Shown piece after piece: positions 5,920 through 15,939 of a stretch of DNA of 33,304 bases (the first letter of the stretch is position 1; every line of letters starts with the position of its first letter). Origin of the DNA: Opitutia bacterium. Lineage in GTDB: Bacteria > Verrucomicrobiota > Verrucomicrobiia > Opitutales > Opitutaceae. The stretch spans positions 1 to 33,304 of the forward strand of contig CANHAH010000018.1 of the NCBI GenBank assembly GCA_947458705.1, in the 5' to 3' direction. Under the pieces are notes generated by a model, which saw nothing but the letters and a program-made list of their open reading frames with translations, ran no database searches and had not been told where the DNA came from. The translations under genes were made by a program, and so were the position numbers.

Positions 5920-6034
5920 ATCAAAATGAGAGATTGAGATAGTGGGCTTTGTCCACGGAAATTTTCTTGGTTTCAGGGGTGCGCGTAATTTGTTCAGCTT
6001 GCAGCCGACGGATCTCTTCTTAATCTCCAACCTA

Positions 6035-6946
6035 ATGGCTCCTGTCGATTCCGCCGCTCAACGTAGTCGCACGGTTGTGGAGCAGCTCCGGCGATCTGAC
6101 ATTTTTCGAGATTATGAGCAGGCTTTTCGGGAGACTACGGGCTTACCGATTAATCTGCGTCCGATCGAGGCTTTTGACCTGCCGCATCATAAAGATCCGA
6201 AGCAGGCGCCGTTTTGCGCGTTGCTAGCTCAGAGCAACAAATCTTGCGCGGCTTGCCTTCAGCTACAGAAAAAAGTCGAAGAGGAGGCGAAATTGGAGCC
6301 GAAAACACTCAAGTGCTTTGCCGGCCTGTGTGATTCGTCTGTGCCGGTGCGCGTGGGCGAAAACCTTGTGGCTTTTTTGCAAACCGGCCAGATTTTGTTG
6401 CATCAGCCCTCGAAGGCTGAATTCGCCAAAACGACGCGTCAGCTTGTCCAGTGGGGATCCGAAGTTGATCTTAAAAAATTAGAGGAAGCTTATTTTCAGA
6501 CCCGTGTCGTCTCCAAAAAACAATACGAATCCATACTGCGGTTACTAACAATTTTCGCGCAACATTTGGCCTCGGTGAGTAATCAACTCAGTGTGCGGCA
6601 AAGCACTAGCGAGGCACCCGCCGTGACGCGCGCTCGCATATACATTGCCGAGCATCAAACGGAGGAAATTGCCCTCAAGGACGTGGCCGGGGCTGTGAAC
6701 ATGAGCGCATTTTATTTCTGCAAAACCTTTAAAAAGGCCACGGGGATGACGTTTACCGATTATCTAGCCCGCGTTCGGGTGGAGAAAGTTAAGAATCTTC
6801 TGCTTAATCCGCACAAACGCGTGAGTGAAGCCGCTTATGAAGCAGGGTTTCAATCGTTGTCGCAGTTTAACCGGGTTTTCCTTCGGATAGCGGGACAATC
6901 ACCCTCGGTTTACCGCGATCACGTGCATAACATTTCGAGGTCCTGA
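6035..6946 (+). CDS. AraC-family transcriptional regulator with PocR-type sensory domain
   Basis: The C-terminal ~100 residues form an AraC double helix-turn-helix: ARIYIAEHQTEEIALKDVAG, then the FKKATGMTFTDYL linker region and VSEAAYEAGFQSLSQFNRVF as the second helix-turn-helix. The N-terminal ~170 residues match the PocR ligand-binding type, with cysteines in CALLAQSNKSCAACLQL and KCFAGLCDSSVPV. In PocR itself the domain senses a small molecule; here the cysteines could also bind metal or respond to redox state, which is inference. The start is ATG 6035, because codons upstream of it reach into the divergent promoter region without conserved sequence. The oxidase locus follows within 1.2 kb, so control of it is possible but unproven. 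Confidence 0.85.
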   Translation: MAPVDSAAQRSRTVVEQLRRSDIFRDYEQAFRETTGLPINLRPIEAFDLPHHKDPKQAPFCALLAQSNKSCAACLQLQKKVEEEAKLEPKTLKCFAGLCDSSVPVRVGENLVAFLQTGQILLHQPSKAEFAKTTRQLVQWGSEVDLKKLEEAYFQTRVVSKKQYESILRLLTIFAQHLASVSNQLSVRQSTSEAPAVTRARIYIAEHQTEEIALKDVAGAVNMSAFYFCKTFKKATGMTFTDYLARVRVEKVKNLLLNPHKRVSEAAYEAGFQSLSQFNRVFLRIAGQSPSVYRDHVHNISRS

Positions 6947-7417: not shown

Positions 7418-7595
7418 TACTAGAGAGTATCAATTTGGTCTAACGCTTACTCCGCGCGCCTTGCGAAAGTTTAGGCATTTTTTGCCTCAGTAAAAAATCA
7501 ACCTCGGACAAAATATGCACAGTCTCAGGCAAGGCCTGCACAGACTGATCGAGTTTAAACGGTTACATTCAGAGGCACACAACAACTCGCACCCA

Positions 7596-7805
7596 ATGAA
7601 AATTAACGCCTCTCACGCCATCGCATCAACAGAACCGACCGAAGCTCAAATTCAACATCAGGCTTATATGCTTTGGCAGGCTGCCGGATGCCAAGAGGGC
7701 CGAGAGCTCGATGACTGGCTTCAGGCCCGTGAACTGCTGCGCCATCTGCATGGGCACGCCAACCATAAGCCGCGGGCAAGAGTCCAGAAACGTCAGGCCC
7801 AATAA
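7596..7805 (+). CDS. DUF2934 domain protein
   Basis: The 69-residue product contains one DUF2934-like unit: IQHQAYMLWQAAGCQEGREL followed by DDWLQARELL. This matches the family pattern of I-x3-AY-x-LW-x2-G-x2-GR-x3-DWLxAE. The role of DUF2934 is unknown. The short tail is basic. A longer reading from ATG 7515 adds unlike sequence, so I start at ATG 7596. It precedes the CcoS-like gene by 23 bases and may be carried on the same transcript as the oxidase genes. Confidence 0.65.
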   Translation: MKINASHAIASTEPTEAQIQHQAYMLWQAAGCQEGRELDDWLQARELLRHLHGHANHKPRARVQKRQAQ

Positions 7806-7828: not shown

Positions 7829-8125
7829 ATGCTGTTTATGTCTGTCGTGCCACTCACGCTTACTATTAGTCTATTTTTAGTTTTCACGTTCATTATTTTT
7901 TTTCTGCGGGAGCATGCCCGCAGTGGCAATAGTAGTGTCGAGCGCGATTCGTTACTACCCTTGTTAGAAGAAACTCCGCACCTGGCTGACTCGAAGCATT
8001 TAATATCCGAGTTAGACCACGACCATGATGCTGAGTTAGCGGCCGGCGCGGCCGAATGCGTTTGTCGTAGTATTCCTCATGCCCGGTGTGCGGGGTGTCT
8101 CAAGCAACCGGCTGATCAAACCTGA
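7829..8125 (+). CDS. Small membrane protein, CcoS-like cbb3 oxidase assembly candidate
   Basis: This is a single-span membrane protein of about 98 residues: a hydrophobic helix at roughly residues 5-26, then REHARSGN, reminiscent of the (V/A)RSGQFDD segment after the helix in CcoS, which is needed to load heme and copper into cbb3 oxidase. The long tail is not typical of CcoS: it has an acidic His/Asp patch (DHDHD) and cysteines in CVC and CAGC. It ends 28 bases before the ccoNO start. No other ccoS is in the locus. The identity as CcoS is inference from topology, motif and place. ATG 7841 is an alternative start. Confidence 0.5.
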   Translation: MLFMSVVPLTLTISLFLVFTFIIFFLREHARSGNSSVERDSLLPLLEETPHLADSKHLISELDHDHDAELAAGAAECVCRSIPHARCAGCLKQPADQT

Positions 8126-8153: not shown

Positions 8154-10469
8154 ATGTCCGACCAAAAAATAACCATCGAATTCAACGACAAGGTCGTTCG
8201 CCAATTCTTGCTCGCCTCCGTGATTTGGGGCGCCGTAGGCATGGTGGTCGGAACGCTCGTGGCTGCTCAGCTCAATTACTGGCAGGTAAATTTTAATCTT
8301 CCTTGGCTTACGTTTGGCCGCCTGCGTCCGCTGCACACCAATGCTGTAATTTTTGCTTTTGTGGGCAACATGATGTTTGCCGGCATCTATTATTCGACCC
8401 AACGCCTCGTGAAGGCTCGTTTGGCCAGTGATTTTCTCTCCCAACTGCATTTCTGGGGTTGGCAGCTTATCATCGTGGCGGCTGCAATCACGCTCCCTTT
8501 AGGATTCTCGCGCGGTAAGGAGTACGCGGAGCTCATCTGGCCGATCAATATTGCGGTTACTTTGATTTGGGTGGTGTTTGCCGTTAACTTTTTTTGGACA
8601 CTCGCTAAACGTCGTGAACCGAGCCTCTACGTGGCGATCTGGTTTTACATCGCGACGATCATCACTGTGGCGATGCTCTACATTGTTAACCATCTCTCGA
8701 TTCCGACGGGTTTGCTTCACAGTTATCCGGTCTTTGGAGGGGTGCAGGATGCGCTCGTTCAGTGGTGGTACGGGCACAACGCCGTCGCATTTTTTCTAAC
8801 CACCCCGATTCTTGGCGTGATGTATTATTTTCTGCCAAAAGCGGCGGAGCGTCCGGTCTATTCTTATCGGTTGTCGGTCATTCATTTTTGGTCGCTTGTA
8901 TTTGTTTATATTTGGGCTGGCCCGCATCATCTGTTGAACAGCGCTTTGCCCGGTTGGTTGCAGAACCTCGGCATGACTTTTTCGCTGATGCTCTGGGCCC
9001 CATCGTGGGGCGGTATGCTTAATGGTCTTCTCACGCTACGCGGCGCATGGGACAAACTCCGGACTGATCCGGTGCTCAAGTTTTTCGCTGCGGCCGTCAC
9101 GTTTTACGGCATGTGTACCTTTGAAGGGCCGCTGCTTTCGATTAAATCGGTCAACGCCCTCGGCCATTACACCGATTGGATCATCGGCCATGTCCATGGC
9201 GGCACGCTCGGTTGGAATGGGTTTATGGCTGCCGGCATGATTTATTGGCTACTCCCGCGTCTTTGGAGTCGGCCTTTGCACTCGATTTCTCTAGCTAATC
9301 TCCACTTTTGGCTCGGGACGGTCGGCATCCTTCTCTACGTCGGCGCGATGTGGACGAGCGGGATCACTCAAGGGGTCATGCTCAACGCCACGACGGAGGG
9401 CGGCACACTTTTGGCCTATCCAAATTTTCTTGATACGCTCAATACGATCCGACCGATGATGTTAATGCGCGTGATCGGTGGATCACTGTATCTCGTCGGC
9501 TGGTTCCTTCTGATTTATAATCTCTGGAAAACCATCGCCACGGCTCATCCCGTTAACGGGACCATAGAAGTTTTTGCGGACGAAGGGACCGTCGTCCACG
9601 AAGACAAAATCACGCTGGTCGGTACGTTTCTTAATCCACCAGTGGCCTTCTCTATCTTCGGCGTGGGCTTCTCGTGCGCGTGGATGTTTGGCGGCGACTT
9701 TTTGAGTATCGCTGGAATGTTCGGTTTATTGCTCTGCGTCGTATTGGCCTACGCCCATTTCGAGTCGCGCGGTAAAAAATGGGCCACTTGGTACGATCGC
9801 CTCCTGGTTAACTCCGTGCCATTTACGATTCTCGTCGTGATTGCCGTCGCGGTCGGTGGACTTGTGCAAATTATTCCAACCGTTCTGGTGAATCGCGGTG
9901 CCAACCTCGAGGAGCGCCGTCAGCTACTATATACGCCGCTCGAGCTCGCTGGACGCGATATTTTCGTCAGCGAAGGCTGCTACAACTGTCACTCACAAAT
10001 GATCCGTACGCTTGTGCCTGATGTGCTCCGCTATGGTGATTACTCGCGTCTCGGTGAATCTATTTACGACCATCCGTTTCAATGGGGGTCTAAACGTACC
10101 GGTCCGGATTTGGCCCGCGTTGGATCAAAATATCCCAATATCTGGCATCTGCGCCACATGGAAGACCCGCGCTCAATTTCCGTTGGGTCTAACATGCCGA
10201 ACTATCCTTGGCTGTTCACCCTCACTACGGATTTGGCGGCTCTCCCCGGGAAAATCGCTGTGCAACGTCTGCTTGGCGTACCTTATCCCTCGTGGACCGA
10301 TGCGGCGATCGCCGCTGACTTTGTATACCAATCCAAAATAATCGCGAATGATCTACAAACGGCAGGCGCCGTGATCGCCCCTGACAAACAGATCGTCGCA
10401 CTCATTGCGTACCTACAAAAGCTCGGAAAATACGAGACCGTGGTGCCGCAATCCAGTACCGCTCGTTAA
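8154..10469 (+). CDS. ccoNO: cbb3-type cytochrome c oxidase, fused subunits I and II (CcoN-CcoO)
   Basis: This inner-membrane core of a high-affinity terminal oxidase reduces oxygen to water and pumps protons. Residues 1-~460 are CcoN. H61 (RPLHTN) and H348 are candidate low-spin heme b ligands, H208 (WWYGHN) with H258 and H259 (GPHH) the copper-B ligands, and H346 the heme b3 ligand; Y318 in FYGMCTFEGP is the expected cross-linked tyrosine. Residues ~485-545 add an extra hydrophobic linker, followed by one anchor helix and the CcoO cytochrome c domain with CYNCH at 609-613 and M681 in SNMPNYPW as axial ligand. In most proteobacteria these are two genes; fused CcoNO is known from other phyla. 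The first gene of a tightly packed cco operon. Confidence 0.97.
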   Translation: MSDQKITIEFNDKVVRQFLLASVIWGAVGMVVGTLVAAQLNYWQVNFNLPWLTFGRLRPLHTNAVIFAFVGNMMFAGIYYSTQRLVKARLASDFLSQLHFWGWQLIIVAAAITLPLGFSRGKEYAELIWPINIAVTLIWVVFAVNFFWTLAKRREPSLYVAIWFYIATIITVAMLYIVNHLSIPTGLLHSYPVFGGVQDALVQWWYGHNAVAFFLTTPILGVMYYFLPKAAERPVYSYRLSVIHFWSLVFVYIWAGPHHLLNSALPGWLQNLGMTFSLMLWAPSWGGMLNGLLTLRGAWDKLRTDPVLKFFAAAVTFYGMCTFEGPLLSIKSVNALGHYTDWIIGHVHGGTLGWNGFMAAGMIYWLLPRLWSRPLHSISLANLHFWLGTVGILLYVGAMWTSGITQGVMLNATTEGGTLLAYPNFLDTLNTIRPMMLMRVIGGSLYLVGWFLLIYNLWKTIATAHPVNGTIEVFADEGTVVHEDKITLVGTFLNPPVAFSIFGVGFSCAWMFGGDFLSIAGMFGLLLCVVLAYAHFESRGKKWATWYDRLLVNSVPFTILVVIAVAVGGLVQIIPTVLVNRGANLEERRQLLYTPLELAGRDIFVSEGCYNCHSQMIRTLVPDVLRYGDYSRLGESIYDHPFQWGSKRTGPDLARVGSKYPNIWHLRHMEDPRSISVGSNMPNYPWLFTLTTDLAALPGKIAVQRLLGVPYPSWTDAAIAADFVYQSKIIANDLQTAGAVIAPDKQIVALIAYLQKLGKYETVVPQSSTAR

Positions 10470-10507: not shown

Positions 10508-10702
10508 ATGTTTCGCCGCCTTATCTTTGCTGACTCCTCAACCTTGTTCACCCTCGTGGCGTTCATCACCGCGGTATCCATTTTCGTCTCAATCAGTTGG
10601 CGCGCCTTGCGAATGAAACGCACCCAACTTGCCCATTTCGAAAATCTGCCCTTCAGCACACCCACTCCTTCTGCTCGCCATGACACCGATCCCACCGCCT
10701 GA
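10508..10702 (+). CDS. ccoQ: CcoQ-like small subunit of cbb3 oxidase
   Basis: A 64-residue single-span protein. The helix (LFTLVAFITAVSIFVSISW, about residues 13-31) is followed by basic residues and AHFENLPF, which matches the conserved (A/D)xxLPF end of the CcoQ core. CcoQ stabilises the assembled oxidase. It lies where expected between CcoO and CcoP. Its 3' end overlaps the ccoP start by 23 bases, implying translational coupling. Confidence 0.8.
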   Translation: MFRRLIFADSSTLFTLVAFITAVSIFVSISWRALRMKRTQLAHFENLPFSTPTPSARHDTDPTA

Positions 10703-11252
10703 AGACGATACCCTGCGTCAGCATTCTTTTGACGGCATCCAGGAATTCGACAAGCGCCTCCCTAATTGGTGGCTGATGACGCTCTACGGCGCGATTATTT
10801 TCTGGGTTGGTTATTGGGCTTATTTTCAGTGGTTTCACGTCGGTCTCGATGGCCCCCAAGAAGTGACCCGTGAGATGAGTAAAATCGAGGCCGCGCGTCT
10901 TGCGGCCGCGCCCACCACGGACAACACCAGCCTCTGGAAAATGAGTCGCAACCCCGTTTTTATTGAAGCTGGTCGCACTACATTCAACACGCTGTGCGCG
11001 AGTTGTCATACTGAGAAACTTACTGGAGCGATCGGTCCTAATCTCGTCGACCAACTGTGGATTCACGGTGGCACACCGATAGAAATTTACGCCACCATGG
11101 AGAAAGGTGTGCTCGCCAAAGGTATGCCCGCGTGGGTTCCGGTGATCGGCGCTAAGAAATCCGCTGAAGCAGTCGCCTATATACTGAGTTTTCACAAGGA
11201 AGGCGAACGTATCGAGATGCAGGCCGCTTGGATTCCACAAGCACCTAAATAA
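10680..11252 (+). CDS. ccoP: cbb3 oxidase subunit III (CcoP) with a single heme c site
   Basis: CcoP passes electrons from soluble cytochromes to the oxidase core. The N-terminus FDGIQEFDKRLPNWW and one membrane helix (about residues 32-50) are classical CcoP. Only one heme site follows, CASCH at 106-110, with M149 in KGMPAW as likely axial ligand. The protein is 190 residues, whereas the common diheme CcoP is around 290-320, so one cytochrome c domain is absent. The C-terminus is intact and the reading frame clean, so this is an architecture rather than a break. The start at 10680 lies within ccoQ; an in-frame start at 10629 has no family-like sequence. Confidence 0.92.
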   Translation: MTPIPPPEDDTLRQHSFDGIQEFDKRLPNWWLMTLYGAIIFWVGYWAYFQWFHVGLDGPQEVTREMSKIEAARLAAAPTTDNTSLWKMSRNPVFIEAGRTTFNTLCASCHTEKLTGAIGPNLVDQLWIHGGTPIEIYATMEKGVLAKGMPAWVPVIGAKKSAEAVAYILSFHKEGERIEMQAAWIPQAPK

Positions 11253-11255
11253 TTA

Positions 11256-12680
11256 ATGTCTTTGGCTCCGCCCCAACCCAACCGCGATTCTGTCACCACC
11301 ATCCGCGATGATGGCTCTCGCGCTTTTTTGTATCCCGCCGATACGCAGGGACCATTTGCGCGGGCACGGCGGTGGACGGCGGCGTTTTTGATCGTTTTCT
11401 ACCTTTCCTTGCCTTGGATCAAAATCAACGGATACCCGGCAGTTTTTCTAGATCTCAACGAACGACATTTTCATCTCTTTGGTCTTACTTTTGCAGCGCA
11501 AGATTTGTGGCTAATTTTTTTCCTTATCACAGGCGTTGGCTTTTCGTTGTTTTTTATCACTGCGCTGCTTGGGCGCATCTGGTGTGGTTGGGCGTGTCCA
11601 CACACAGTTTTTCTAGATCACGTTTATCGCCGAATTGAACGCTGGATTGATGGCGATGCGGTGCATCGACGCGCCTTGACTGATGCGCCGATGAACGCAG
11701 CGAAATTTTTAAAACGAATCCTGAAGCATACGCTCTACTTAATAGTTTCGGCAGTGATCACTCACTTGTTTTTCGCCTATTTTGTGTCGTTGAGCGAGGT
11801 CTGGGCCATGATGAAAGAAGCACCTGGGGAGCACTGGGCGTCGTTTGGGTTTATGGCGGTGTACACGGCTGGACTCTATTTTAATTTTGCCTGGTTCCGA
11901 GAGCAACTATGCATCGTCATCTGTCCCTATGGACGCATACAATCAGCGTTGATCGATACTCATTCGCTAGTGGTAGGCTACGATGCGCAACGCGGCGAGC
12001 CGCGTGGTAAACCCGGTGCACTAGGCGTGGGTGATTGCATATCTTGCAGTCGCTGCGTTCACGTCTGCCCCACGGGCATCGATATCCGACAAGGCCTTCA
12101 GATGGAATGCATTGGTTGTACCGCCTGTATCGATGCGTGCGACGCAGTTATGACTAAACTAAAACGCCCCGCCGGCCTCATTCGTTATGATTCACAAGCG
12201 GCGTTTGCCGGCAAAATTACGCGTTGGTTGCGCCCCCGCACTTTCCTATATGGCGCGCTCCTTGCGGCTGGCGCGAGTGCCGCACTTTGGGCTATTTCCA
12301 CGATTCGACCGGCCAATCTCGGCATCACGCGTATGATGGGTGCCCCCTACATCGTTAGTGATGGGTATGTGCGTAATCAATTCCTTGTGCGCGTCGTCAA
12401 TAAACGGAACCAAGCCGTGAACTTCGTTTTGCATTTAAATCGAGCTCCAATCGGTCTCCAGCAGACCGGCCTCACGACTGCCTTTGCGGTTCCTGCGTTG
12501 TCGGAAACGTTGCAACCGCTGGTGCTTCAGTTGCCAAAAAAAAATTACCACGGCCCTTTTATTTTTGAAATACGGGTTGAGGATGAAGCCGCTCGTTTCC
12601 ACCTCGAGCGCAATGTAGAGTTTCTTGGTCCCGACGCGAATGTATCGGTCGAAGAAAATTACGGCAAACGTGAGCACTAA
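11256..12680 (+). CDS. ccoG: cbb3 oxidase accessory protein CcoG, polyferredoxin-type cupric reductase
   Basis: CcoG reduces Cu(II) so that it can be used to assemble the copper centre of cbb3 oxidase. Membrane helices span about residues 40-200. CGWACPHTVFLDH at 110-122 and CIVICPYG carry the conserved membrane-proximal cysteines. Two [4Fe-4S] ferredoxin motifs follow: CISCSRCVHVCP and CIGCTACIDACD. The last ~120 residues form the periplasmic IG-like domain. The gene starts three bases after the ccoP stop and ends inside the next small gene. Confidence 0.94.
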   Translation: MSLAPPQPNRDSVTTIRDDGSRAFLYPADTQGPFARARRWTAAFLIVFYLSLPWIKINGYPAVFLDLNERHFHLFGLTFAAQDLWLIFFLITGVGFSLFFITALLGRIWCGWACPHTVFLDHVYRRIERWIDGDAVHRRALTDAPMNAAKFLKRILKHTLYLIVSAVITHLFFAYFVSLSEVWAMMKEAPGEHWASFGFMAVYTAGLYFNFAWFREQLCIVICPYGRIQSALIDTHSLVVGYDAQRGEPRGKPGALGVGDCISCSRCVHVCPTGIDIRQGLQMECIGCTACIDACDAVMTKLKRPAGLIRYDSQAAFAGKITRWLRPRTFLYGALLAAGASAALWAISTIRPANLGITRMMGAPYIVSDGYVRNQFLVRVVNKRNQAVNFVLHLNRAPIGLQQTGLTTAFAVPALSETLQPLVLQLPKKNYHGPFIFEIRVEDEAARFHLERNVEFLGPDANVSVEENYGKREH

Positions 12681-12828
12681 GCCCTCTAATACCTCAGGTG
12701 TTAAAAATTCACGACTAATCTGGATCGTAGTGGCTGTTTTTACTGTGCAGATTTCTCTCTGGGCTGCTTGGATCTCATTCGCCGCGAAGCATAAGGTAGC
12801 CGAACTGCCGCTCGTCAGATCCCGCTAA
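12670..12828 (+). CDS. Minimal CcoH/FixH-like single-span peptide
   Basis: A GTG at 12670, overlapping the ccoG stop by 11 bases, begins a 52-residue product with one helix, LIWIVVAVFTVQISLWAAWI, and a short basic/charged tail. It takes the place of ccoH in the usual ccoGHIS order. Full FixH/CcoH is about 150-170 residues with a periplasmic domain, which is missing here. An upstream ATG at 12625 would run through ccoG coding sequence. Reading it as a reduced CcoH is inference; it could be an unrelated assembly peptide. Confidence 0.55.
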   Translation: MSTKPSNTSGVKNSRLIWIVVAVFTVQISLWAAWISFAAKHKVAELPLVRSR

Positions 12829-12832
12829 TTAT

Positions 12833-13528
12833 ATGGAATTTGCTGCCATCGATTCGCCAACTGTGGCTCTTGTCGCCGGATTAGTGACGAGTCTGCACTG
12901 CACTGGCATGTGCGGACCGTTAGCCTGCTCGCTCATGCCCGTGCGTGGTGATCGCGCCGATGACCAGACGGTGAGCACGGTTTATCATATTTCACGCCTA
13001 ACCAGTTATGCGTTGGTCGGTGCATTAGCCGGCGGCCTTGGACGCGTGCCGATCACCTGGATCTCACACACTGCACTGCGCTGGATGCCCTGGGTCACGG
13101 TGTTTTTTTTTATTTCGCTGGCGCTGCGATGGGATCGGTTCGTGCCGCGAATTCCTGGGCTTGGCCCCTGGATTTTTCAGCTGCAAGGCTGGCTGCGGAC
13201 ACGGCCGCGGACTCAAGCCGCCGCTGTGCTCGGATTGGCGACACCTTTACTGCCTTGTGGGCCTCTTTATTTCCTCATGGCCCTTGCAACCTTGTCGGGT
13301 TCGACGTTGCGAGGGGTGGAGTTTATGATCGCATTTGGGCTAGGTACCGTACCGTTGCTATGGCTCGCGCAAAGTCAGTTTCAATGGTTGCGCGCAAATT
13401 TATCGCCGCATTGGCTTGCGCGCACGCGCACCGTGCTCGCGTTGACCACCGCTGCGGTAGTGGGGTGGCGTCTTCGAGCTACGCTTGGTTTCGCCGGACC
13501 TGATCCGTCTTTATTCATTTGTTTTTAA
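12833..13528 (+). CDS. Sulfite exporter TauE/SafE-like (DsbD_2-type) membrane protein of the cco locus
   Basis: A 231-residue polytopic protein with the paired motifs GLVTSLHCTGMCGPLA at about residues 17-32 and ATPLLPCGPLY near 140-150. These Cys/Pro-containing helices define the cytochrome c biogenesis transmembrane group (PF13386), often found beside copper ATPases of cbb3 loci and thought to take part in copper or reductant transfer. The spacing is four bases after the small gene before it and two bases before ccoI, so translation is likely coupled. Substrate is not proven. Confidence 0.85.
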   Translation: MEFAAIDSPTVALVAGLVTSLHCTGMCGPLACSLMPVRGDRADDQTVSTVYHISRLTSYALVGALAGGLGRVPITWISHTALRWMPWVTVFFFISLALRWDRFVPRIPGLGPWIFQLQGWLRTRPRTQAAAVLGLATPLLPCGPLYFLMALATLSGSTLRGVEFMIAFGLGTVPLLWLAQSQFQWLRANLSPHWLARTRTVLALTTAAVVGWRLRATLGFAGPDPSLFICF

Positions 13529-13530
13529 AC

Positions 13531-15939
13531 ATGAACGTAGATCTCCGTTCTGAGCCGATATTCCTCCCTTTGATTGACGAACTCGCTCCTGCACGATCGC
13601 GATTTAATAAGCCATTGTGCCGGCATTGTGGATCGCCGCTTTTGGATGCGCGGATGGCGGAGTCGGGCTTCTGCTGTGCGGGTTGCAGTTACGTCTTTCG
13701 AATCGTGCACGAACATGGTTTGGCAGGCTATTATCGTATTAAGGATCAAATTACGGTGCCGGCGGATGTGGCAGTGTTACAGGCCCGCAATTATGCTTGG
13801 TTGGAAACGGAACAACGCGTGGCGGAGTTAGCGGTGGCGGATTCAGGCCGTCCACCTGAGCTGGTCTTAGATTTACAAGGGGTTTCGTGTGCGGGCTGCG
13901 TATGGTTGATTGAACGCCTGTTCGCCCAGCAGGCCGGTGGGCGCGATATCGTGACTAACGCGCAATTCGGCACAGTGCGCTGGCGCTGGATCGTAGGCGT
14001 GTTCGATTGCGCGGCGTTTGCTCGGACGTTGCAGACCTTTGGATATTTGGTGGGACCGTTGGGCGAAGCGCGGGCGGAGCCAGAGAGCCGCGGCTTGGTC
14101 AAGCGCATCGGGTTGTGCACGGCCTTCGCGATGAACGTTATGTTATTCACGTTTCCGGTTTATTTCGGCATGGAGCCCTCTTTTGAATACGCGCGCTTGT
14201 TTGGTTTGTTGTCTCTGACGTTTTCGTCGCTGAGTTTTTTTGTGGGAGGTATTTATTTTCTAGGTCGTGCTCTACGTGCGTTGCGGGTAGGAGCGATGCA
14301 TATTGATCTGCCTATCGGGCTAGGGATTGTGGGGGCTTATGCGGGCTCACTTTACGGGTGGTTTTCAGGAGAAGAGCGTTTTTTGTACTTTGATTTTGTC
14401 AGCGGATTTATCCTGCTGATGCTAATCGGGCGTTGGGCTCAGGTTGCTGCCGTGGAGCGTAACCAGCGGCGTTTGCTGGCGTTGCAGCCTAAGCCGCCGC
14501 AGGTAGTGACGGAGGACGCGGGATTGGTCGCGCCGGAGTTATTGCGTGTCGGGCAGATTTACGCATTGAAATCGGGTCAGACCAATCCTGTAGAGGCGCA
14601 ACTCGGCGAGGAGGGCGCGACCGTTTCACTGGCGTCGATCAATGGTGAGGCAGAGCCGCGAGTTTTAGTGCCGGGTGCGCGAGTGCCGGCGGGCGCAGTC
14701 AATATTGGTCTCATGCCGCTACGGCTCAAGGCAAGTCAGAGGTGGCGAGAGTCCTTGCTTGCGCAGTTGTTGGAGACGCCGGAGCGCGCTGGGGTAAAAG
14801 ATCGTTGGATCCAGCAAATAGTGCGTGGTTATATTGGTGGAATTCTAGGAATCGCTCTGTTGTCCGGATTAGCCTGGTGGTGGGGGACGGGGGACGCGTT
14901 GCGCACGTGGGCGGTGGTGACGGCAGTTCTCGTCGTTTCGTGTCCGTGTGCGGTGGCTTTGGCATTTCCCTTATCCGATGAAATAGCGACGGTGGCGTTG
15001 CGGCGTCGTGGAGTTTTTGTGCGCGAGGAAGCTCTTTGGATGAAACTCAGTCGCGTGCGGCACATTGTATTCGATAAAACAGGGACGCTAACATTGGAGG
15101 CGCCGGTGTTGAAAAATCCCGACGCTTTGAAGGGGTTGGAACCATCGGCGAGAGCCGCGTTGCACACGTTGGTACGGGATAATCCGCATCCGGTGAGTCA
15201 GGCGCTTTTGGAGAATATTTTAGCTGCGGGTACGCCTGAAGTACTCGAGGGAGAGGTGACGGAAGTAGTTGGTTGTGGAGTTGAGATTGGCAACTGGTCG
15301 TTGGGTCGAGCGGGTTGGCGCGGGGTGTCTCAGCGGGAGGGCGCGACTGTATTGGTACGAGCAGGCTCAGTGGTGGCGGAATTTATTTTTTCAGACACGG
15401 TGCGGGCCGATGCCCGCTTGGAAGTGACCGCACTGCGGATGCGAGGGCTGACGGTACAGGTTTTGAGCGGAGATCGACGGGAGAAAGTGGCCACTTTAGT
15501 TGAGGAGTTGGGGCTACCGTCGAATTGTGGTTTTGGGGAGCTTTCGCCGCAGGAAAAGGCGGCCTGGTTTATCGGGAATCGTGCAACAGATACTCTGATG
15601 CTCGGGGATGGGGCCAATGACAGTTTGGCGTTTGATCGCGCGTGGTGTCGTGGCACGCCCGTGATTCACCGCGGATTGCTCGAGCAGAAGGCGGATTTTT
15701 ATTATCTCGGCCGTGGCATCGGCGGCATTCGGGCGCTCTTTGAAGTGGATACGATGCGGCGACGGACTCAGAGGGTGATTTTATTTTTTTCTATCTTTTA
15801 CAACCTGCTCGCAGTCGGGCTCGCGGTGGCCGGAAAAATGAATCCACTGATTGCGGCGATTTTGATGCCGGTAAATTCGCTTGCGACGCTTGCGATCGTG
15901 ATGGGCGGAATGCGCCGGGTTTTTCGTGTAGCGCGTTAA
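13531..15939 (+). CDS. ccoI: Copper-transporting P1B-type ATPase CcoI
   Basis: CcoI pumps copper across the inner membrane for assembly of the cbb3 copper centre. From the chosen ATG, an N-terminal cysteine-rich module has C30xxC33 and CCAGC at 48-52; a heavy-metal-binding domain follows with CAGC at 120-123. CPC at 471-473 is the intramembrane copper site, D515 in FDKTGTL the phosphorylated aspartate, NPHPVS the nucleotide-binding HP motif, and GDGANDS the hinge. The actuator loop reads NGE at 371-373 where TGE is usual; the catalytic glutamate is kept. TTG at 13519 would add four residues. The stop shares bases with the convergent peptidase gene. Confidence 0.95.
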   Translation: MNVDLRSEPIFLPLIDELAPARSRFNKPLCRHCGSPLLDARMAESGFCCAGCSYVFRIVHEHGLAGYYRIKDQITVPADVAVLQARNYAWLETEQRVAELAVADSGRPPELVLDLQGVSCAGCVWLIERLFAQQAGGRDIVTNAQFGTVRWRWIVGVFDCAAFARTLQTFGYLVGPLGEARAEPESRGLVKRIGLCTAFAMNVMLFTFPVYFGMEPSFEYARLFGLLSLTFSSLSFFVGGIYFLGRALRALRVGAMHIDLPIGLGIVGAYAGSLYGWFSGEERFLYFDFVSGFILLMLIGRWAQVAAVERNQRRLLALQPKPPQVVTEDAGLVAPELLRVGQIYALKSGQTNPVEAQLGEEGATVSLASINGEAEPRVLVPGARVPAGAVNIGLMPLRLKASQRWRESLLAQLLETPERAGVKDRWIQQIVRGYIGGILGIALLSGLAWWWGTGDALRTWAVVTAVLVVSCPCAVALAFPLSDEIATVALRRRGVFVREEALWMKLSRVRHIVFDKTGTLTLEAPVLKNPDALKGLEPSARAALHTLVRDNPHPVSQALLENILAAGTPEVLEGEVTEVVGCGVEIGNWSLGRAGWRGVSQREGATVLVRAGSVVAEFIFSDTVRADARLEVTALRMRGLTVQVLSGDRREKVATLVEELGLPSNCGFGELSPQEKAAWFIGNRATDTLMLGDGANDSLAFDRAWCRGTPVIHRGLLEQKADFYYLGRGIGGIRALFEVDTMRRRTQRVILFFSIFYNLLAVGLAVAGKMNPLIAAILMPVNSLATLAIVMGGMRRVFRVAR

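Follow-up and report, generated by a model that had tools for sequence, protein, structure and literature searches.

The cbb3 cluster and its first gene

The stretch of Opitutia DNA analysed here (33,304 nt, referred to as the window) contains a cluster for a cbb3-type cytochrome oxidase in the order ccoNO-Q-P-G-H-DsbD2-I, headed by a small ccoS-like gene, with all genes in the same direction (Table 1). The gene following ccoI is on the opposite strand, so the cluster does not end in ccoS as it usually would. Copper ATPase models match ccoI below their cut-offs, and its N-terminal cysteines are conserved in relatives. A PocR-domain AraC-type regulator is encoded on the same strand at 5942–6946, some 0.9 kb upstream of the ccoS-like gene, and could control the cluster. 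No FNR-type box was found within the 800 bases before the ccoS-like gene. Sites like TTGATNNNNATCAA (up to two mismatches) number 22 in the window, twice as frequent as in shuffled sequence (10.5, with 0 of 100 shuffles having as many), and none of them is shortly upstream of the ccoS-like gene.

The frame at 7829–8125 (+) is open and holds one hydrophobic helix, ARSG, a DHDHD patch, CVC, and CAGC, all as described in the first-pass annotation. Because relatives begin at MSVVPL or MSVIPL, the ATG at 7838, giving 95 aa, is a more likely start than that at 7829 (98 aa). Among six close relatives, pN/pS is 0.13 for residues 1–48 versus 0.47 for the linker and 0.37 for the Cys box, which shows that both core and tail are translated, and that purifying selection acts on both but less strongly on the tail. 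Together with the recovery of the gene across the family described below, these ratios indicate that the peptide is a genuine gene and not a chance reading frame. An AlphaFold model has a single transmembrane helix at residues 4–33 and leaves the tail unfolded or disordered (pLDDT about 50); it is uninformative on any metal-bound fold, and the side on which the C-terminus lies is taken from charge only.

Table 1. Features of the ccoS-like gene and of the cbb3 cluster that it heads.
Feature	Position	Strand	Basis or remarks
ccoS-like gene, 95 aa	7838–8125	+	Starts of relatives; 7829 is an alternative start
Membrane helix, residues 4–33	7847–7936	+	AlphaFold model; conserved S11, L12, F18, F22
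Conserved, predicted cytoplasmic segment ERDSLLPLLEE, residues 35–45, aligned with VETPAQRILFEE of canonical CcoS	7940–7972	+	Alignment
DHDHD patch in linker, residues 60–64	8015–8029	+	Sequence; HxH in many four-Cys tails (see text)
Cys box C-x-C-x7-C-x2-C, residues 74–87 (C74, C76, C84, C87)	8057–8098	+	Sequence, relatives
ccoNO, fused catalytic and mono-haem subunits of cbb3 oxidase	8154–10469	+	COX1 and FixO
Small membrane ORF in ccoQ place	10508–10702	+	Position and sequence only; no informative family
ccoP (true start probably within frame)	10629–11252	+	FixP_N and Cytochrome_CBB3
ccoG	11256–12680	+	Fer4_18 and FixG_C
Small membrane ORF in ccoH place (true start probably within frame)	12625–12828	+	Position only; weak DUF3262 match below cut-off
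DsbD_2-type membrane protein	12833–13528	+	PF13386
ccoI, P1B-type copper ATPase, with N-terminal CxxC...CCxGC and HMA-like CxxC	13519–15939	+	PF12156, E1-E2_ATPase

A diverged CcoS-like peptide in the Opitutaceae

At a permissive threshold (E ≤ 10, where many matches are due to chance), the window protein matches in 44 of 57 genomes, its own included. Thirty loci from this search were used to build a profile (A1); a head of about 48 residues is common to all of them, and in all 30 a ccoN match lies just downstream. At E ≤ 0.01, profile A1 finds the ccoS-like gene in 189 of 252 Opitutaceae genomes. A scan of a contig collection, using patterns from the core of the Opitutaceae peptide, gave 115 relatives; the titles of the 80 that were kept all refer to Opitutaceae or its genera, to Opitutae/Opitutia, or to Verrucomicrobia. 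Named isolates with the peptide include Cephaloticoccus primus and C. capnophilus.

For a census, one protein was taken from each of 122 genomes, 119 of them Opitutaceae and three of the order. The ccoN gene comes next in 120 of these, at a distance of −26 to +215 bp, and where long loci were available, ccoNO, P, G, DsbD_2, and I follow in order in 85 of 92. The peptide had been described from the window as leading the cbb3 locus, and this position holds in nearly all of the genomes examined. Homologues lying away from cbb3 loci, which would have spoken against the original reading, did not turn up. The two exceptions come from related genomes (G132, locus L151, and G136, locus L148), in which the ccoS-like gene and a DsbD_2 gene stand side by side and no ccoNO, P, G, or I could be found in the stretches concerned; these look like remnants of a partly deleted cbb3 cluster.

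The resemblance to CcoS was originally seen in the helix and the ARSG segment after it. Here the two parts of the claim separate: ARSG itself occurs in only five of the 122 proteins and is one residue off the canonical RSG, while the homology is recovered at the profile level. When profile A1 was aligned by hhalign with 13 canonical CcoS sequences from other families of the phylum (alignment A2, GQFDD..TP), the probability was 95.7% (E = 9.1e-9) over 51 columns without a gap. The heads alone score 41.4, against a maximum of 27.0 among 100 controls made by permuting the canonical alignment's columns within the helix half and within the remaining half (0 of 100 as high). Among the 30 members of A1, no Pfam family other than FixS recurs (11 of 30, all below the cut-off, best E 0.0013), and the sub-threshold FixS matches in genomes G080 and G056 fall on the ccoS-like gene itself. 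Canonical CcoS genes in other families of the phylum are positioned similarly, with ccoN adjacent in 16 of 23 loci (L066–L088) and ccoI on the other side in 13; the other seven show neither within 1.5 kb flanks.

Other observations mark the distance from canonical CcoS. The window protein has no Pfam or NCBIfam match and does not reach the FixS (PF03597) cut-off of 23.1 bits. Its own genome, 80.6% complete, has no FixS match over the cut-off, the best (10.7 bits) being elsewhere in the genome. As for the CcoS signature following the helix, G-Q-[FY]-[DE]-D-x2-T-P, neither GQ[FY] nor TP occurs in any of the 122 proteins. With the signature absent and no Pfam match, the peptide is called CcoS-like here and not filed under FixS. 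These same absences would be expected if it were not CcoS at all, but some other small single-helix subunit or assembly factor of the oxidase, similar to CcoQ or CcoM, that stands before ccoN by chance. This is quite improbable, given that the profile match to canonical CcoS is well above the shuffled controls, that canonical CcoS occupies the same place in other families, and that a separate small ORF is found in the ccoQ place.

Homology and shared position thus indicate that the N-terminal 50 residues are a CcoS that has diverged strongly. The predicted single N-terminal helix, the short, presumably cytoplasmic, segment, the place before ccoN, and the gapless alignment are common to both; the window peptide differs in the missing signature, in falling below the Pfam cut-off, and in having an additional Cys/His tail, which the canonical members seen here do not have. 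A second small CcoS-like protein (NGQLKEFEKNA..IFDDEEPxGxxTDxFP) is found in Opitutales genomes (L089–L091, L093–L095, and L194–L197, where L094 and L194 are the same gene). It adjoins a distant ccoN relative (26–34% identity), so that some Opitutales genomes possess another cbb3-like oxidase, served by a more canonical CcoS of its own.

The orientation of the peptide can be predicted from its charges. The net charge of residues 23–33 is positive in 117 of the 122 proteins, and that of residues 1–6 is never positive. By the positive-inside rule, this pattern would put the tail on the cytoplasmic side, the same side as the N-terminal metal-binding region of CcoI. The first-pass annotation had proposed a metal carrier for the oxidase; from a cytoplasmic tail, any such transfer would have to run via CcoI.

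The cysteine tail and its possible ligands

Both CVC and CAGC are present as first noted, but they are the halves of one motif, C-x-C-x7-C-x2-C, and not two separate sites. The motif is found in 56 of the 122 proteins, typically in the form C-G-C-R/H-x-G-x-R-x-P-C-x-G-C-L-K. Some clades have three-Cys variants with a His-rich approach, for example C-x4-C-x2-C in genus g66. The linker before the Cys box is often rich in His and Asp, with His-rich runs of varying length (as in G065 and G183), and HxH is present in 35 of 59 four-Cys tails and in 18 of 21 other tails with at least three Cys, compared to two of the remaining 42 proteins. The suggestion that the tail resembles a metal site is borne out by this conserved Cys/His pattern, and the tail probably binds a metal such as copper at a putative site of this kind.

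The number of cysteines after residue 45 is none in 37 proteins, one in four, two in one, three in 15, four in 62, and five in three. Possession of them is therefore nearly all-or-none, with 0–1 in 41 proteins, two in one, and 3–5 in 80, although the last figure is not an estimate of prevalence, since the genomes of the census come from the top-scoring matches to queries that included tails and cover 119 of the 189 matching family genomes. In one sister pair (G139 and G144) the tail is still alignable, with all four Cys replaced by Gly in G144. Both this joint loss and the overall distribution fit a single metal site with ligands that are of use only as a set. The existence of homologues lacking the cysteines had been named beforehand as counting against the first-pass reading, and it does so in part: the 42 proteins of 122 with two or fewer imply that the tail is an accessory, outside the basic function of the peptide.

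A copper relay, considered in the last section, is the preferred reading of the tail, and its main rivals are a zinc knuckle and a metal buffer. A tetrathiolate set with Gly and Pro between the Cys pairs has the look of a zinc knuckle, and His/Asp runs are common in zinc proteins. Each tail has one such set, with Gly and Pro conserved between the pairs, and the linker has the His/Asp runs; the four thiolates could hold one structural Zn(II) and so fold a docking element for CcoI, CcoG, or CcoN. Frequent full loss of all four Cys from an intact core would be unexpected for a docking element, however, three-Cys variants occur, and the tail profile has no match (0) among Protein Data Bank sequences that could serve as a structural relative. 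The zinc knuckle is accordingly held to be a rather unlikely explanation.

At E ≤ 1e-4, all 57 matches of the tail profile in the 252 family genomes fall on the ccoS-like gene, never free-standing (matches were placed by eye against the A1 match positions, with G082 and G121, absent there, checked separately). Within the phylum, the tail was not found outside the Opitutaceae; among 288 genomes drawn from across it, only family members score below 1e-3. Pfam scans of three pieces of the tail gave nothing, including no HMA domain. An origin as a metagenome-bin artefact was ruled out, as the tail is present in the single-contig genomes G057, G172, and G188.

The history of the tail was followed on a CcoN tree with 110 rows; of the 120 for which ccoN could be read, eight were too short to use and two (G173 and G242) had broken reads. 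Tail state, taken as three or more Cys versus fewer, changed at least 19 times on this tree, which is from a quick search and has many weak branches; 200 label shuffles average 31 changes, none being as low. The tail is thus inherited yet labile, and tailed and tail-less species occur within single genera (e.g., g7, g16, g49, and g61). A DUF2934 gene is located just before the ccoS-like gene in the window (7515–7805), and a relative of it is found upstream in 48 of 116 genomes. The four-Cys tail is present in 36 of these 48 genomes vs. 18 of the 68 without (plain Fisher p = 2.5e-7); independent pairs on the tree give this association no support (median p = 0.5), and for now the co-occurrence is put down to shared ancestry.

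Repeated loss of this order, like the variable length of the His-rich runs, fits something dispensable, such as a metallothionein-like buffer that would protect cytosolic thiols, or the site where the oxidase is assembled, against too much copper or zinc and be kept where exposure to metal varies. The tail has just four Cys at fixed spacing, though, and its constant attachment to the ccoS-like gene points to a job specific to the cluster, so that a buffer seems unlikely. CxC and CxxC are also usual in thiol redox proteins and in Fe-S ligand sets. Since the tail has one of each, and the cluster also encodes CcoG and a DsbD_2 protein, the Cys pairs could act as a redox switch, or hold a small Fe-S site, in concert with one of these. 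Such a scheme has no place for the His-rich linker that accompanies the Cys box, some clades have three Cys, and the loop between the pairs is much shorter than that of BFD-type Fe-S domains; the scheme is considered extremely improbable.

A possible copper relay to CcoI

The reading preferred here, offered tentatively and at somewhat less than even confidence, is that the tail is a membrane-tethered cytosolic Cu(I)-binding appendage of the Opitutaceae CcoS, serving CcoI; that there is a metal, that it is copper, that it is delivered, and the side on which this happens are all our inferences. The CcoS core, one helix and a short cytoplasmic ER(D/E)SLLPLA(D/E)E segment, would have drifted far while keeping its place before ccoN, and many lineages would have added a flexible cytoplasmic tail ending in C-x-C-x7-C-x2-C, often after His/Asp runs. 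The four thiolates would hold a soft metal ion, most likely Cu(I). Tethered beside CcoI, the tail could collect or relay copper locally and load CcoI with it; CcoI would then pump Cu(I) outward for insertion into CcoN. The tail would in this way do the job of a soluble CopZ-type chaperone, a protein mostly missing from these genomes.

Copper chaperones were looked for in 60 genomes, of which 30 have a four-Cys tail and 30 have at most two tail Cys. Stand-alone small HMA frames (E ≤ 1e-5) were found in two, both tail-less; other HMA matches are in frames of at least 185 residues, many of them ccoI. The near absence of CopZ-type frames makes a tethered Cys tail beside CcoI a plausible copper donor. 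No complementary pattern of tail and CopZ is seen in the 60 genomes, since those lacking the tail mostly lack CopZ as well. Sco, sought as a partner of the tail, is present in 59 of the 60, and among the Cys, His, and Met columns of the cluster proteins none varies significantly with the tail once 224 tests are corrected for (best p = 6e-4). One complete genome has four HMA matches with identical scores in 199-residue frames (G015:C1, at 1515075, 3829040, 5656359, and 5677086), and similar frames of 199–200 residues occur in four other genomes; this looks like a repeated, perhaps mobile, gene. Weighing against a copper relay are the 42 relatives that work without a tail, the unfolded state of the tail in the AlphaFold model, and the failure of the core to reach the FixS cut-off or show the signature.

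Known systems offer partial parallels. CopZ-type chaperones (HMA, PF00403) share the proposed job of feeding Cu(I) to CcoI, but the window peptide has neither the HMA fold nor MxCxxC, and is membrane-tethered. CopY repressors and Ctr1 copper transporters have short Cys tails with CxC-type Cu(I) ligands, although these are unrelated proteins, with other spacing than in the window tail. Interaction of CcoI with CopZ in Rhodobacter capsulatus is reported in excerpts from PMC7558416, as is CupA of streptococci, a membrane-anchored cytosolic chaperone for CopA. In CupA and, as proposed here, in the window protein, a copper-binding part anchored to the membrane lies in the cytosol beside a P1B copper ATPase. 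In CupA (same excerpts) this part is a domain of the cupredoxin type, which has two copper sites and functions in export, whereas in the window peptide it is a short Cys tail on CcoS; the likeness is one of working only, with no relatedness in the tests run here.

Mutants connect CcoS itself to the activity of the oxidase. In excerpts from PMC8267372, Rhodobacter capsulatus CcoS mutants are reported to assemble an inactive oxidase, while Campylobacter jejuni ccoS and ccoI mutants lose oxidase activity, part of which is restored by extra copper. CcoS is described in the same excerpts as lacking both characteristic motifs and homology to any characterised protein. What appears to be new here is a Cys-tailed form of this known cbb3 maturation factor in many members of the Opitutaceae. 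The first-pass annotation knew of no CcoS with such a tail, and no description of one was found in the titles and abstract openings of papers listed by searches of the open-licence literature.

The existence of a natural CcoS version with a likely metal site of its own suggests that CcoS acts beside CcoI, on the cytoplasmic face of the membrane. A further-reaching reading, which we regard as doubtful, is that a membrane-tethered Cu(I) relay became joined to CcoS in the Opitutaceae, allowing a single peptide to mature the oxidase and also to feed CcoI, the dedicated pump, in cells that have no CopZ. On this view, the tail would be a module by which lineages adapt to copper supply, repeatedly discarded, and perhaps regained, in one piece. 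The tailed and tail-less species within single genera provide natural comparison pairs. If true, the fused relay would reveal CcoS as an organiser of copper entry into CcoI.
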